DNA from: Mesotoga infera | Lineage (GTDB): Bacteria > Thermotogota > Thermotogae > Petrotogales > Kosmotogaceae | DNA length: 64,000 bases | Reading direction: 5' to 3' | Assembly: GCF_900157305.1 (NCBI RefSeq) | Contig: NZ_LS974202.1 | Coordinates: 2,356,001-2,420,000 of the forward strand | Part shown: in pieces, positions 16,426 to 22,660 of the stretch | Layout of the letters: each line of letters opens with the position of its first letter | How positions within the stretch are numbered: position 1 is the first letter of the stretch | Notes under the pieces: generated by a model | Told to the model about the DNA's origin: nothing | What the model saw: only the letters and a program-made list of their open reading frames with translations | The model's database searches: none | Made by a program: the position numbers and the translations under genes

Positions 16426-17337
16426 ATGCTGAAACAGGATCACACCGGGGATGGGATTTTGGATCAGGCGATAAAACTCAAAAGTGTACTTGAAAGTTTT
16501 CCTGATCCATCGGCCATTATCTCTTCAACGGGAAGAATCCTGCGTGGTAACTCTCATTGGGAGAGACTGGCTTCCTCTCTCACTATGGAATCAGCTGCCT
16601 TTATGGAGTGTGGTAAAGAACTCAGGGGATTGGTGAAAAGGTTTACAGAAGATAAAAATATTGAAGAATTTAACGATCTTCTCTCGGGGAGAAAAAACTC
16701 TCTCAGTCTTGAACTTAACCTCTCGGAGATTTCTGAGGGGAAAGGCCTTTCATTGTTCGTTTCGCGCATCACTCTTGAAGACATGCCTATATTTCTCGCT
16801 ATCATTAAAGACGGTACCGAAATAAATAACCTCCGCAGCTTACTCAAGGAAATCATATACCACGATAACCTAACGGGACTTGGAAACGAAAGTTATTTCA
16901 ATCTCTATCTATCACGCAAAATCCTTCGTGCGATGGATGATGGCAGTTCTCTCTTCGTTCTATATATAGAGATTAGCAATATAAAAGAGATAATGGCTAT
17001 GTTCGGAAAACGTATCTCTAATTCCCTTGTGGTTAGGACTTTTAGAAGATTGAAAGAGAACCTAGGAGGTAAAGAGTTTTTCAGAGTTCAGCATGATGCC
17101 TTCGCAGTAGTTTTGGAGTCGATTGACAGGGGGGTTCTATATCTTGAGCTGAGTTCTCTTATAGTCAAACTAGAGAAGAAAATAATCTGCGAAAACCTAG
17201 AACTATTCCCCGATATTCTGGTTGGCGTTTGCGAATTCCCCGTCGATGGAAAAAGTGTTGATGATATTATGAGTAATTGTCTTGGCGCACTTTTTAGGGC
17301 AAAAAGAGAGAATCTTAAGTGGAGCTTCTATAGTTGA
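16426..17337 (+). CDS. PAS-GGDEF protein with a degenerate active site
   Basis: The 303-residue protein has no membrane helix. Residues about 15-125 look like a PAS sensor (LESFPDPSAIISSTGRILRGN). From residue 140 the motif HDNLTGLGNESYFNLYL opens a diguanylate cyclase domain. The catalytic GGDEF is replaced by QHDAF (in RVQHDAFAVVLE), so cyclic di-GMP synthesis is unlikely; it could be a nucleotide-binding or scaffolding sensor. The start codon lies a few bases after GGAAGAAGGGA. It converges with the exported operon with only four bases between stops, and no terminator is visible there. Confidence 0.8.
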   Translation: MLKQDHTGDGILDQAIKLKSVLESFPDPSAIISSTGRILRGNSHWERLASSLTMESAAFMECGKELRGLVKRFTEDKNIEEFNDLLSGRKNSLSLELNLSEISEGKGLSLFVSRITLEDMPIFLAIIKDGTEINNLRSLLKEIIYHDNLTGLGNESYFNLYLSRKILRAMDDGSSLFVLYIEISNIKEIMAMFGKRISNSLVVRTFRRLKENLGGKEFFRVQHDAFAVVLESIDRGVLYLELSSLIVKLEKKIICENLELFPDILVGVCEFPVDGKSVDDIMSNCLGALFRAKRENLKWSFYS

Positions 17338-17341
17338 GCTT

Positions 17342-19480
17342 TTATTTGAAGCGAAGGGTTATGATATCGAAATCTCCCCTATTGGTTGGTATATCACCAT
17401 CTTCTGATGCTGTGTAGCCGGTTACTGCGAAACCATCGGTACACAGAGTGATCGATGTGGCGACATCTCCGAGAGTCCCTCCATAGCAATCACTCCAGAG
17501 CATTTCTCCAGTACGACTAACCTGGAAGATCCACATATCGCTATAGGTAAGGCCCAACTTATCAAGCTTTCCCTCATGGAAACTCCCCAGTATAGTTTCG
17601 TTTGATTCGGTGAAACCCACCGTGATGGCTCCGCCTGAGCCAGTAATGACCATATCGGTTAGATGATCGTTCGAACGGCCTCCATAAATTTCCTTCCAGA
17701 TTAATTCCCCATCACCGTCGAGTTTTATTATGAAGCCGTCGTAGTCTCTACTTTTCCTTTTGAAATCTCCATTCTGCGAATTAGTTGAACCGCATATATA
17801 GATCTCGCCGGCTGGACAGATTTCAACTGTGGCCGGTGAGTCCTCTCCGGTTCCTCCAAAGACTTTCGTCCATAGAACTCTACCACTGCCGTCAATTCTT
17901 AGAACTAATACCGAAGAACTCTCAATCTTGATCCCGTTTACTTTCAAGACTCCCGCAACATTACCGCTAGAATCACCGTCTATGGAAGTGGTTTCGGCTA
18001 CCACAACTATATCCCCGTTTTCGGCTATAGCCATATCTATCGCCCGCTCATAGGAACTACCTCCGTATCTCTTCTCCCAGACAGGTTTACCGTTGAGATC
18101 TAGCTTGATAAGCACAACATCGCCACAAGATATTTTCTCTGAACCGGCCGCCGTTCCAAGTATTAAAAAGCCATCATCTAGCTTTGCCAGGGAGACTTTA
18201 GAGCTGACGGTTCGCCCGAGCTCGGTCTTCCATTTCACATTGGTGAATCTGTCGAGACGGACCAGCAACAGGTTCGATGGTAATTCGCTTTTGAAACCAT
18301 TCTCTGTCGAACTTCTGCCGGCCAGAAGGAAGCCTCCATCCTCAGTCGCAATGATTGCTGATATTTCGGTCCAGCCAAATTCCAGTAACTTCTGCCAGGC
18401 GAAGTAGCCATTACTATCCAGCTTGACTACCCAACCGCTTCTGAATACATCTTCCTCCGACTTTCCATTGGATATTTCGGGAGATTCCGTCCAACCGGTA
18501 ATAGCGAATGTGCCATCTGCTAGTGCTTCGAGCGAATTAGCCGAATCACTGCCACTCCCTCCCAGAAGACGCTTCCAGACGATGGAGGGAATCTCTTTCG
18601 TAGAAAAACTCCAAAGCGGTCCTTGAACTTCTCCACCCCTTCCGTCTCTTGCGTCGATTCTCCAGGAGTATTCGCGTCCCGCCTCTATAGAGGAGATTTT
18701 AAACTCGTTTTTATCAATGTTTTTCGCGAGAAGTTCCAATCTCCCTTTCTCTCCAAAAAAGACATCGTAAAAGAGGTCGTCACCATCTGGATCTTCCGCG
18801 TTCCACAGGAGCGTGACTTCTCTAAAAAAATCGACTGTTCCATCGGCCGGGAAGGGATTTCCCGGTTTCCCAGGCAAGTTGTTTACGTCCATTACTATTA
18901 CGGAAAATGTTGTACACTGCCACTCCCCCTGTCCATCCATCGCTTTTATCGTGACACGATGTGCGGTAGGTGCCTCTTTAGATCCGGGAAGATAAGAATA
19001 CACCCCTTTATCTATACTGCCAACTCCGCTAACCAGTTCGTAAGTCACATCACTGGAGTCGGTTGAAGTGAAATCTGGAAGGTTTATGATCAGAGTTTCA
19101 CCTTCGTAAACTTTCCGGTTGCCGATTTCTATCGAGGGAGCCTTTGGATCATTTACGATCTCTATGTTTATTGTGATGACTGCCTCGCTTTTTCCCGCCT
19201 CCACCTCTATCTGGACCATATCTTCGCAATCTTCCGGTCCCCGGGGAGAAACTGTGTAGATACTTCCCTCTATCTTTCCGCTGCCTTTGATGATTTTAAA
19301 ATTGACAGGTCCATTTGGGCCGGAGATAAAATCTGACAGATTTACTCTCAGCTCTTCTCCTATCTTCACACTCAGTGAAGGCGTATCTAGAACCTTAATC
19401 TCGGTGTTTTTTTTAAGAGCAAAGGTTATTACTACTACCGATGTGATAGCTACCAGGCCTATGAGAAAAAACCTCCGCAT
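17342..19480 (-). CDS. Large exported protein: Ig-like, FN3-like and beta-propeller repeats
   Basis: This 712-residue protein starts with a membrane anchor or signal (residues 4-22) and is otherwise extracytoplasmic. Residues about 30-200 form two Ig/cadherin-like units. About 205-295 is FN3-like (LLWNAEDPDGDDLFYDVFFG and AGREYSWRIDARDGRGG). From 300 to the end there are about seven repeats with the pattern GG.. D.A....DG....G.TES, typical of a blade-repeat propeller (for example GGSGSDSANSLEALADG and GGTLGDVATSITLCTDG). I recognise no catalytic residues. It is the second gene of an operon, four bases after a WD40 protein, so the two may form a surface complex. Confidence 0.75.
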   Translation of the reverse strand: MRRFFLIGLVAITSVVVITFALKKNTEIKVLDTPSLSVKIGEELRVNLSDFISGPNGPVNFKIIKGSGKIEGSIYTVSPRGPEDCEDMVQIEVEAGKSEAVITINIEIVNDPKAPSIEIGNRKVYEGETLIINLPDFTSTDSSDVTYELVSGVGSIDKGVYSYLPGSKEAPTAHRVTIKAMDGQGEWQCTTFSVIVMDVNNLPGKPGNPFPADGTVDFFREVTLLWNAEDPDGDDLFYDVFFGEKGRLELLAKNIDKNEFKISSIEAGREYSWRIDARDGRGGEVQGPLWSFSTKEIPSIVWKRLLGGSGSDSANSLEALADGTFAITGWTESPEISNGKSEEDVFRSGWVVKLDSNGYFAWQKLLEFGWTEISAIIATEDGGFLLAGRSSTENGFKSELPSNLLLVRLDRFTNVKWKTELGRTVSSKVSLAKLDDGFLILGTAAGSEKISCGDVVLIKLDLNGKPVWEKRYGGSSYERAIDMAIAENGDIVVVAETTSIDGDSSGNVAGVLKVNGIKIESSSVLVLRIDGSGRVLWTKVFGGTGEDSPATVEICPAGEIYICGSTNSQNGDFKRKSRDYDGFIIKLDGDGELIWKEIYGGRSNDHLTDMVITGSGGAITVGFTESNETILGSFHEGKLDKLGLTYSDMWIFQVSRTGEMLWSDCYGGTLGDVATSITLCTDGFAVTGYTASEDGDIPTNRGDFDIITLRFK

Positions 19481-19484
19481 GGTC

Positions 19485-21764
19485 TCACATCAGCCTTACT
19501 TTTCGCTTCTTCTTTCTTATGAAAGAAGATCTAAATATAAGCAAAAGAAGGATAGCTATCGCTGCAACCGCAACCAACACAAGCAGCCAGTTAGTTTTTT
19601 TCTCGTCCATGGCCGGAGCTGCCAGTCTTATGGTTTTTTCAGAAGTGTTGCCTTCAAGATCTCTGGCAACGACTCTGTACTCGCCGTAATCTCCCACAAT
19701 AACGAACATCTCTTTTTCTTTGAGATCCACCGGATATCTCTTCTCGGAGACTTCTACTTCAAGCACCTTTATATCGTCACTCACCTTGAAGTTCAGCATC
19801 TTTTCCTTATTGGCATCAGCGTATTGTACATCTTCGGCCTCTATAATCGGACTCTCGGTGATGATTTTCGTCTCGGTCAGTACATCTTTTTCGACCCAGC
19901 CATATTCTTTAACGAAGAAAGAATTTTCCCCCTCGGCCGTAACGGTTACTTCCTGACCGCGTCTGAGATTTCCTTGATCCCTTTCAACCCAGAAGGTTTT
20001 TGCGTTTGCATACAACGAAAAGGTGGCCCAGGCTTCGTTGCCCTCGTTATCTATAGCTGCCACACGGTATTCGCCAGTTCCAGCGACCTTGATTCTAATA
20101 TTCTCGTGCGGAGAGTTCACAGATACCTCATCGCGTTTTTCGTCGGGTCCGATAACGATTACCGTTTTGACCTCATTGTTGTCGGTCACGACGAAATTAA
20201 GATGCTTTTCGTGGCCTATCATAACCTGTTGAGACGTTTGGCCTGTTATCTGGGGAGGTTCTATATCAGGTGCGATATCGGAAAAAAACTCACGCGAAAG
20301 CCATTCGCCGTTTACCAGAAGATCCATATCTTTGCGGTCGCTCACGACCACTTGATCGCCCCGCCTGTACGGTCCAACATTGTCTATCACATACATCTTG
20401 GTCTCTTCAAACTGAACTTCTAGTATTTTTTCATCGAAATTTCCTATTGAATCGAAAGCTTTGATGGTTAATGCACCGGCCGAGGTTGTTCTGAAGGTCA
20501 CTTTGCCTGACTCTCCGATGGGGATTTCCTCATCGTTCACGGTGACTCTCACAACGGGCTGTGAAACAACGAAGGTCAAATCGGTATTATCAATAGTAAT
20601 GGATTGTGGAGATTGAACGTATATTCTCGGGAGTTTATCTAGCTGGAGCAATAGACTTGACAACTCTGTTCCCTGCTGATTGGGCTGCTTCCCAGAAGAA
20701 GTTTTGACACGCGATGCGCCTTTACTCGAAGCAACCCAGTTACCATCGCCGTTGTAGGAAAAGTATTCCCCGTCTCCGAAGCCTATCAAGGTACCGAGAG
20801 CCACTCCTTTATCAACGTCCCATATCTTTACAGTACCGTCGCTCGAGCCAGAGTAAATTATGCTGGAATCACCCGATAGAACAATCGAAGAAACATCCCA
20901 AGTATGTCCCGTTATCATTTTTACCAGAGAGCCAAGCGGTAGAGAAAGTATCTTCACTGTTCTATCACGTGAGGAGGTGAATATCAAGTCCCCTCTTATG
21001 ATTATCGCCGTTACCTCCGCGTTGTGAGCCTTTACTATTCTCAGTGCTGACCAGGTTTTTACATCGTAGAATTTCAACGGGCCATCTTTAGATCCAACTA
21101 CCAGAATACTCCTTTTCTCATCCATATTGACAGACGAAAGAGCCCCAATTTCAGCCTTAATAACCTTCACCTGTTGACCTGTAGAAGTATCCCATATTCT
21201 CAATGTACCATCATCAGACACCGAGTATAGACGGTTTTGTTCTGGCCAGTGGACTATTGAATTTACCGGTCCCGAGTGGCCTCTCAACGATCTTATGAAA
21301 GCTAGTTCAGACAGAGACCAGACTTTTACTGTTCCATCGGAACCGGCCGAATAAAGTGTCTTACCGTCTTCCGTGACCAGTAAATAATTCACTGAACTCG
21401 TATGACTGCTAAGTGATTTTAAAGGTTTGCCAGTTTCCATCTCCCAAACTATTATCATGCCATCATCGTATCCAGCAATGCCAAGTCTTCCATCAGGTGA
21501 TACTGCTAACGAAGTAACCCAGGAGCTGTGGAGTGAGAGGTTCATAGATAGCTTTCCATCAAGTAAGTTCCAGACCTTTACCGTGTTATCTATATAGCCG
21601 GCTAAAAGGCTTTTTCCATCAGTTGATAGTGCGATGCAGTTTATGCTGAAAGCCGTCTCGTCGGGAAAGTACTCCACGGAAAAAACGGCAGTCAAGCTAA
21701 GAAAAACGATAAAAAGAACAAGTAATAATTTTCTCAAATCCATCACCTTGGAAGGAATATTCAT
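19485..21764 (-). CDS. Secreted, membrane-anchored WD40-repeat protein
   Basis: This 759-residue protein has a signal sequence (LRKLLLVLFIVFLSLTAVFS), seven WD40 repeats to about residue 330 (such as VTSLAVSPDGRLGIAGYDDGMIIVWE and VSSIVLSGDSSIIYSGSSDGTVKIWD), then about 350 residues of Ig-like beta units, and a C-terminal membrane helix (about 725-746) with a basic tail RKKKRKVRLM. Outward exposure of a WD40 propeller with a C-terminal anchor is unusual in bacteria. ATG 21743 is an alternative start. No enzymatic motif is seen; protein binding is the likely role. Confidence 0.75.
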   Translation of the reverse strand: MNIPSKVMDLRKLLLVLFIVFLSLTAVFSVEYFPDETAFSINCIALSTDGKSLLAGYIDNTVKVWNLLDGKLSMNLSLHSSWVTSLAVSPDGRLGIAGYDDGMIIVWEMETGKPLKSLSSHTSSVNYLLVTEDGKTLYSAGSDGTVKVWSLSELAFIRSLRGHSGPVNSIVHWPEQNRLYSVSDDGTLRIWDTSTGQQVKVIKAEIGALSSVNMDEKRSILVVGSKDGPLKFYDVKTWSALRIVKAHNAEVTAIIIRGDLIFTSSRDRTVKILSLPLGSLVKMITGHTWDVSSIVLSGDSSIIYSGSSDGTVKIWDVDKGVALGTLIGFGDGEYFSYNGDGNWVASSKGASRVKTSSGKQPNQQGTELSSLLLQLDKLPRIYVQSPQSITIDNTDLTFVVSQPVVRVTVNDEEIPIGESGKVTFRTTSAGALTIKAFDSIGNFDEKILEVQFEETKMYVIDNVGPYRRGDQVVVSDRKDMDLLVNGEWLSREFFSDIAPDIEPPQITGQTSQQVMIGHEKHLNFVVTDNNEVKTVIVIGPDEKRDEVSVNSPHENIRIKVAGTGEYRVAAIDNEGNEAWATFSLYANAKTFWVERDQGNLRRGQEVTVTAEGENSFFVKEYGWVEKDVLTETKIITESPIIEAEDVQYADANKEKMLNFKVSDDIKVLEVEVSEKRYPVDLKEKEMFVIVGDYGEYRVVARDLEGNTSEKTIRLAAPAMDEKKTNWLLVLVAVAAIAILLLLIFRSSFIRKKKRKVRLM

Positions 21765-21805: not shown

Positions 21806-22159
21806 TTAATCAAGAAACTTCTGGATCTCAACTCTATAGCCTTCGGGATCTTTGAGAAAAAAGTGATAGATTCCAAATTTCTCGTTTATCGAAGGTCTAT
21901 CCGGTGCCATTCCTAACTTAATAGCTTTTTCGTGAAAATCATCCACGAATTCCGTTAGAAAAGTCATTATTGGCGAGAGCGTGCCTGCCTCGACTGGAAG
22001 GTGTTCACAAAAACCTATCATACCTCCGGACGGCACTGAGTAAATTCTACAATTTCTCTGATCCCTAAATAGCTCCAAACCTAAAAAGCCTTGATAAAAC
22101 TCGTTAATCTTTTCTAGGGAATGACAACCAAGGAAAAATATCACCCCATTAATTTTCAT
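21806..22159 (-). CDS. VOC-family (glyoxalase/dioxygenase-like) protein
   Basis: The 117-residue protein is one vicinal-oxygen-chelate module. It starts MKINGVIFFLGCHSLEKINEFYQGFLGLELF and ends IYHFFLKDPEGYRVEIQKFLD, where the final Glu is a usual metal ligand. The family includes lyases, dioxygenases and binding proteins, and the substrate is unknown. AAAGGAG lies nine bases before the ATG. It has its own leader with a strong hairpin. Confidence 0.8.
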   Translation of the reverse strand: MKINGVIFFLGCHSLEKINEFYQGFLGLELFRDQRNCRIYSVPSGGMIGFCEHLPVEAGTLSPIMTFLTEFVDDFHEKAIKLGMAPDRPSINEKFGIYHFFLKDPEGYRVEIQKFLD

Positions 22160-22187
22160 TAAACCACACTCCTTTCTATACAGTAAA

Positions 22188-22212
22188 GGTCCGATCTAAG
22201 ATCGGACCTTTT
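22188..22212. terminator. Palindromic hairpin upstream of the VOC gene
   Basis: GGTCCGATC (22188-22196) and GATCGGACC (22200-22208) make a perfect 9-bp stem with loop TAA, followed on the plus strand by TTTT and flanked on the other side by AAA. It sits about 28 bases upstream of the leftward VOC start, so it could be an attenuator in that leader or the trace of an older transcription end. Confidence 0.55.
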
Positions 22213-22660
22213 CCGGTTGATAGTTCACACTTAATACGGAGTTGCTATGAGGAGAAGTCGCACTTAAAAAGGGTGTTGACATGCATTTTCGGTCTCTTTC
22301 AGCTCCCCAATATTTAAGACAGCGAGAAAGGAATCAAAGTTCAGGATGCTGTGTACCGATTATATTTTCTTTAAATTGCATATATGTTTAATTATGCGAA
22401 ATAATTCCAGGAAACGTTCACCGTCCTTTTGAAATTACCTATGTAATAGCAGAGTTCAGAGATCACGGATAAGAGAAATGAAGGTTCGAAATACCAGATC
22501 GCCTTTAGTGACGTAATAAGCTGGCATGATAGGAGTACTTCAGGTAAGCTGTGTGTATCTGTGAAAGTTTGTATAAATGTATTTTCATATAAAACCCGCC
22601 TAATGGGAGTTCTTACTGTCATAATTAGCTGTAGCTGGTTATAGAAAGCTATAATTGTCT
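22213..22660. other. Gene-free stretch before the ABC transporter
   Basis: About 450 bases hold no credible gene. A leftward frame at 22392-22622 has no ribosome site or recognisable product, and a rightward open stretch of about 65 codons lacks a start codon. The sequence is AT rich near its end. I see no repeat or RNA structure that I can name. Confidence 0.4.

Follow-up and report, generated by a model that had tools for sequence, protein, structure and literature searches.

In the Thermotogota envelope, the toga anchor OmpA1 is an exported protein with an SLH domain and a coiled coil, whose approximately 20 hydrophobic C-terminal residues may anchor it in the toga (PMC3387000). PG1058 is a periplasmic beta-propeller component of the type IX secretion system (PMC5053529), and in CylK, an alkylating enzyme with a propeller, the catalytic Arg105 sits on an N-terminal Ca-binding domain (PMC8916777).

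Here we analyse a pair of adjacent Mesotoga infera genes, P1 and P2, within a window of 64,000 nucleotides (contig NZ_LS974202.1, positions 2,356,001 to 2,420,000 of a genome that is a single contig of 2,965,660 bases). P1 resembles OmpA1 in being an envelope protein of Thermotogota that is exported and hydrophobic at its C-terminus; however, OmpA1 has an SLH domain and a coiled coil and neither propeller nor basic tail, while P1 is the reverse. With PG1058, P1 would share a periplasmic WD40-like propeller and a putative peptidoglycan-binding part, an analogy only; PG1058 is a Bacteroidetes protein with TPR, CRD and OmpA_C domains and five predicted blades. P2 shares its propeller type with the SBBP lipoprotein LipL53, without the lipobox, and has a propeller like that of CylK, of seven repeats, but not the CylK N-terminal domain with Arg105. 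No papers on Mesotoga WD40 proteins were found in the literature collection searched.

Table 1. Features of the P1-P2 locus, in positions of the window.
Feature	Position	Strand	Length or residues	Basis
Convergent soluble protein, degenerate GGDEF	16426..17337	plus	303 aa	Pfam GGDEF 3.9e-16; PAS-like N-terminus by eye
P2, exported protein with Ig/cadherin-like and FN3 domains and seven-repeat propeller	17342..19480	minus	712 aa	
P2 seven-repeat CylK/SBBP-type propeller	17345..18586	minus	residues 299-712	NCBIfam; CylK match in sequence and fold; repeats counted by eye
P2 FN3-like domain	18593..18883	minus	residues 200-296	fn3 0.0099; Ig2-FN3 cassette; poorly modelled
P2 two cadherin/Ig-like domains	18884..19405	minus	residues 26-199	Cadherin_4 1.9e-4 at residues 100-152; beta-sandwich pattern in model
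P1, exported WD40-Ig/SH3b-like protein with C-terminal membrane anchor	19485..21764	minus	759 aa	
P1 membrane helix and basic tail (...RKKKRKVRLM)	19488..19589	minus	residues 726-759	TM in 9/9 orthologues; tail conserved
P1 stalk, Ig / SH3b-like / Ig / SH3b-like / Ig	19617..20630	minus	residues 379-716	model; BiPBP_C; profile comparison
P1 seven-bladed WD40 propeller	20784..21653	minus	residues 38-327	Pfam; model; superposition; conservation
P1 signal peptide region	21678..21764	minus	residues 1-29	hydropathy in 9/9 orthologues; helix 3-28 in model; cleavage site inferred
VOC/glyoxalase-fold protein, first gene of inferred operon	21806..22159	minus	117 aa	Pfam Glyoxalase 3.3e-4
Conserved non-coding leader upstream of VOC gene	22160..22284	minus		conserved in nine genomes whatever the upstream gene

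Domain architecture of P1 and P2

P1 and P2 are real genes under purifying selection, since both have orthologues in nine genomes, full length in the case of P1 (85-54% identity) and with one cut by a contig end in that of P2 (86-41% identity), and pairwise dN/dS for the two lies at 0.11-0.22. The first-pass annotation had placed two reading frames at 17342-21764, four bases apart, and both were recovered there on the minus strand, with exactly 4 bases between them (TGA-gacc-ATG); at 759 and 712 residues, the proteins it called giant are long, not giant.

P1 qualifies as a WD40 repeat protein by Pfam, model and superposition. Pfam WD40 matched six stretches of it (1.6e-46), and an AlphaFold2 model from a three-sequence alignment (mean pLDDT 71.5, pTM 0.48) contained a closed propeller of seven four-stranded blades (pLDDT about 76-96), which superposed on the WD40 domain of bacterial PkwA (5yzv) with a TM-score of 0.92. 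The propeller is the best-conserved part of the protein, with 48% of its positions invariant. At the threshold used, most genomes of the genus contain no, or hardly any, WD40 protein besides P1. Beyond the propeller, the model continues with three beta-sandwich units, of moderate to low confidence, and a C-terminal helix (residues 726-748).

The approximately 400 residues that follow the propeller matched BiPBP_C in 9/9 orthologues (best 9e-8), a domain of Ig-like fold found at the C-terminus of penicillin-binding proteins; matches of this tail to GldM, apicomplexan and other low-scoring Pfam families were at chance level. Two short segments that separate the Ig domains (455-497 and 589-632) resemble SH3b units on inspection by eye, with the patterns RGD.V.V and GWV.kd.L. 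In P1 itself this assignment is weak, with SH3_3 matching the tail of one orthologue only, and weakly (0.014), while exported WD40 relatives carry SH3_3 at 6e-4 and 2e-4. The Ig-like units listed in the first pass include two that appear to be SH3b-like.

WD40 propellers usually bind partners through the top-face positions of their blades. Nine of the 21 such positions in P1 are invariant, eight of them in blades 1-3 and 7 (S40, I58, W82, T84, D100, N126, S142 and D290) and the ninth in blade 6 (T252), the top face of blades 4-6 being mostly variable. Because 9/21 is no excess over the domain mean of 48%, only this clustering argues for a conserved binding face on blades 1-3 and 7, of which it is a hint.

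The N-terminal half of P2 was less clearly resolved, its cadherin-like (1.9e-4) and FN3 (0.0099) matches being weak and under curated cut-offs, although its Ig2-FN3 cassette recurs at up to 41% identity in many proteins of the family. The P2 model, also from a three-sequence alignment, had a mean pLDDT of 60.6 and a pTM of 0.53, falling to a pLDDT of about 30 in the FN3 region. The propeller matched the NCBIfam LipL53/SBBP model at 1e-14, at a score of 54 bits that is below the LipL53 equivalog cut-off of 400, and P2 has no N-terminal cysteine. Its nearest solved relative is the propeller of CylK (3e-16 by sequence and 3.2e-16 by fold), and P2 is not a WD40 protein.

Orthologues of P2 share a hydrophobic N-terminus and have no cysteine lipobox and no C-terminal or second transmembrane segment. 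Of the first-pass description of P2, the Ig, FN3 and propeller units are there, and an anchor is one of two possibilities: P2 may either be cleaved and secreted or be held by an uncleaved N-terminal helix. Lipoprotein anchoring was rejected for P1 and P2 alike, neither having an N-terminal cysteine. As had been noted at the outset, no enzyme domain is visible in either protein.

The four-gene block and its relatives

Across the genus, the pair sits in a block of constant order, VOC gene, P1, P2 and a convergent degenerate-GGDEF gene, which was found in all ten genomes (in one of them split by contig ends). The spacing of P1 and P2 varies between a 4-bp overlap and a 9-bp gap, a range that leaves out the reading frame of G001, where the called start is too far upstream; the VOC gene lies 41 bp upstream of P1, and the stop codons of P2 and the GGDEF gene are 0-5 bp apart. 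With this operon-like spacing, VOC, P1 and P2 would form an operon, and P1 and P2 are probably made from the same transcript. The two-gene operon of the first-pass annotation was right in its spacing but too small, and the annotation had missed the four-gene block around it.

Two assemblies are interrupted at the locus. In G002, P2 is cut by the end of its contig, and the GGDEF gene is found at the end of a second one. The VOC gene of G008 stops at a contig edge, and the last 64 residues of P2 open another contig beside the GGDEF gene; because both remnants stop at contig ends, the G008 pair lies in an assembly gap and is not absent.

The intact block occupies three genomic settings. In M. prima-type genomes it adjoins GNAT and DppA-like genes; G007 has it in inverted orientation between these two; and in the window and in Kosmotogaceae bacterium UBA1373 (G003) its neighbours are atpC on one side and a peptide ABC transporter on the other. 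Conversely, five further genomes lack the block at the ATP synthase loci that were read, and the window genome and UBA1373 lack it at their DppA loci. The four genes therefore move together as a block, through only two rearrangements, both among close relatives.

Upstream of the VOC gene, the leader of ~125 nt carries a perfect 9-bp hairpin (GGTCCGATC-TTA-GATCGGACC, positions 22208-22188) and a CTCCTC motif, a possible pairing partner of the ribosome-binding site. It is present as a single copy per genome in the five genomes searched, and its covariation is negligible, with only one pair showing two-sided change. A known RNA family was rejected, since no Rfam family matched; the element could be a leader, an attenuator or a terminator. 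The VOC gene itself belongs to the block throughout the genus, and its product scores 21.5 bits against a Pfam Glyoxalase cut-off of 20.6.

At the other end of the block, all eight aligned orthologues have a broken GGDEF motif (QHDAF, QYDTF or M(D/E)DV(F/Y)), which places the protein outside the active diguanylate cyclases, defined by GG(D/E)EF. Because the motif is broken in every orthologue though the domain is kept, the protein is probably a receptor or docking protein and no cyclase. It is the most divergent of the four, with 33-40% identity to distant orthologues, and was not found beyond the genus in 61 genomes at E<=1e-25.

No full P1 orthologue turned up outside the genus in a set of 103 Thermotogota genomes; relatives do have exported WD40-Ig-SH3b proteins resembling P1 and, separately from these, proteins resembling P2. 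The former, of about 800-860 residues in Petrotogaceae and other Thermotogota families, share with P1 the signal peptide, the WD40 propeller, a 'GDGEYFSYN'-type junction and, less certainly, the order of Ig and SH3b units. Unlike P1, they end in SH3b or further Ig units, show no C-terminal transmembrane segment by eye and have no P2 neighbour; their profile matched that of the P1 tail at 1.2e-7, over the junction, the Ig domain and the start of the SH3b unit only. Ig/FN3/SBBP-type segments are likewise frequent, with about 20-30 matches per genome in much of the family, so that the first-pass view of such outward-facing proteins as uncommon needs qualifying. In one sister genus (G013) a P2 homologue of 30% identity occurs by itself, and in another a VOC homologue of 52-55% identity is solitary among metabolic genes, without the leader (G014 C64 and G010 C121; L105 and L106). 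Most simply, the block would have been put together from pieces in the Mesotoga lineage and retained thereafter.

Two further observations concern these relatives. In three Petrotogaceae genera, the WD40-Ig-SH3b gene (~800 residues) lies beside an apparent dnaN (L063 4316-6721, L064 3681-6068 and L065 4036-6438). The window genome also encodes a second WD40-Ig protein, of 920 residues (L062 2433-10695; G000 C1, about 1.162-1.171 Mb), whose Ig/SH3b-like part matches the P1 tail (hhalign 1.3e-21) and whose gene shares a gene run with a weakly matched zf-HC2 protein (zinc-finger, anti-sigma type).

Cellular location and candidate roles of the pair

Hydropathy analysis found an N-terminal h-region and a single C-terminal transmembrane segment in 9/9 P1 orthologues, in agreement with the earlier description of a secreted WD40 protein with a C-terminal anchor. 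The membrane segment varies in sequence, while the basic tail of about 12 residues beyond it is conserved (RKKxRK[VI]RL, with K..RK.RL invariant). Since by the positive-inside rule basic residues mark the cytoplasmic side, P1 most likely sits in the inner membrane with its tail in the cytoplasm and its propeller in the periplasm. Anchoring through a C-terminal sorting signal was rejected, as no NCBIfam sorting model matched P1 and little is conserved just before the membrane segment except A-P.

The first-pass annotation had instead entertained a role in the toga. The C-terminal helix of P1 would then lie in the outer sheath, with the propellers forming part of the sheath or linking it to the wall, and as the hydrophobic C-terminus of OmpA1 may anchor in the toga (PMC3387000), such a helix alone is no proof of an inner-membrane location. 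However, no SLH domain was among the matches listed for whole P1 or its tail, the signal peptide leading straight into the WD40 domain, and P1 has no coiled-coil regions; it thus falls outside the OmpA family, which is defined by an N-terminal SLH domain. Moreover, the basic tail present in 9/9 P1 proteins is missing from the Mesotoga SLH protein that we take to be the OmpA homologue, whose C-terminus (...WLILSTVSSLAALGISIWVLIDSGIR) is uncharged after its helix, save for an aspartate and a terminal arginine in one species. P1 is also confined to one genus, whereas the toga is common to the order. Given the basic tail and the lack of an SLH domain, inner-membrane anchoring fits P1 better, and we regard a toga role as very unlikely.

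We give about an even chance to a reading in which P1 is an inner-membrane-tethered, wall-facing binding scaffold and P2 its exported partner, a reading whose topology, proximity to the wall and protein contact we infer. P1 would be a Sec-exported type I membrane protein, its C-terminal helix in the cytoplasmic membrane and its basic tail inside, and its stalk of alternating Ig-like and SH3b-like units would position the seven-bladed WD40 platform close to the cell wall within the periplasm. P2 would be exported to the same space, whether cleaved or held by its N-terminal helix, with a propeller of its own on Ig/FN3 units. The face formed by P1 blades 1-3 and 7 might then hold a protein partner, for which P2 is the first candidate, and it is most likely that the two act together as a binding complex. 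This is close to the periplasmic adhesion or sensing complex that the first-pass annotation had offered as its other guess, which is still possible. Of the two outcomes it had named as counting against its proposal, neither a cytoplasmic location nor a lack of co-conservation was seen, the pair being present in nine genomes, while in the tenth both of its flanks stop at contig ends.

If P1 and P2 were instead independent adhesin-like proteins that merely share an operon, one would expect to meet their kind apart, as is the case for the P2-type segments so common in the family, for the solitary P2 homologue of the sister genus, for the Petrotogaceae proteins beside dnaN and for the lone VOC gene; yet once assembled, the block is not split in any of the ten genomes, and we consider this independence unlikely. 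Gene order alone suggests a tie of P1 and P2 to the cytoplasmic GGDEF and VOC proteins. Degenerate c-di-GMP receptors such as LapD control envelope adhesins, and by a comparable logic P1 and P2 might bind a ligand outside while the P1 tail passes the signal to the degenerate PAS-GGDEF protein, possibly also to the VOC protein. Such trans-envelope sensing would suit a P1 tail better conserved than its membrane segment, a degenerate GGDEF protein suited to a receptor or docking role, and four genes kept together in ten genomes through two rearrangements. It is distinctly unlikely all the same, as the convergent GGDEF gene lies outside the P1-P2 transcript and encodes the least conserved of the four proteins, the P1 tail is so short, and no shared regulatory element was found. 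Its fuller form, a genus-specific module in which both propeller proteins make up one receptor signalling through the P1 tail to the PAS-GGDEF protein, with the VOC protein in the operon and the RNA leader controlling synthesis, strikes us as highly improbable.

It is barely conceivable that P2 is a CylK-type enzyme for which P1 serves as the docking platform. CylK is the closest solved structure to P2 by both sequence and fold, and Tyr580 of P2, invariant in its orthologues, aligns with the apparent catalytic Tyr473 of CylK. But only the propeller aligns by sequence (P2 residues 382-624), and upstream of it P2 has Ig/FN3-like units in place of the Ca-binding domain that bears Arg105 in CylK (PMC8916777), so that P2 does not combine that domain with a Tyr473 propeller as CylK-type alkylating enzymes do. 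The tyrosine match is itself expected, because its motif, YD[GA][FW], is a repeat feature that recurs within CylK's own blades. CylK-like catalysis by P2 was rejected on these two grounds.

Taken together, these analyses show that, while the domains are ordinary, the pair and its four-gene block form an arrangement that is new and specific to the genus. Characterised structural proteins of the Thermotogota envelope are few apart from OmpA and OmpB, and an anchored propeller pair kept with two cytoplasmic genes provides a defined, testable unit in the mesophilic branch.
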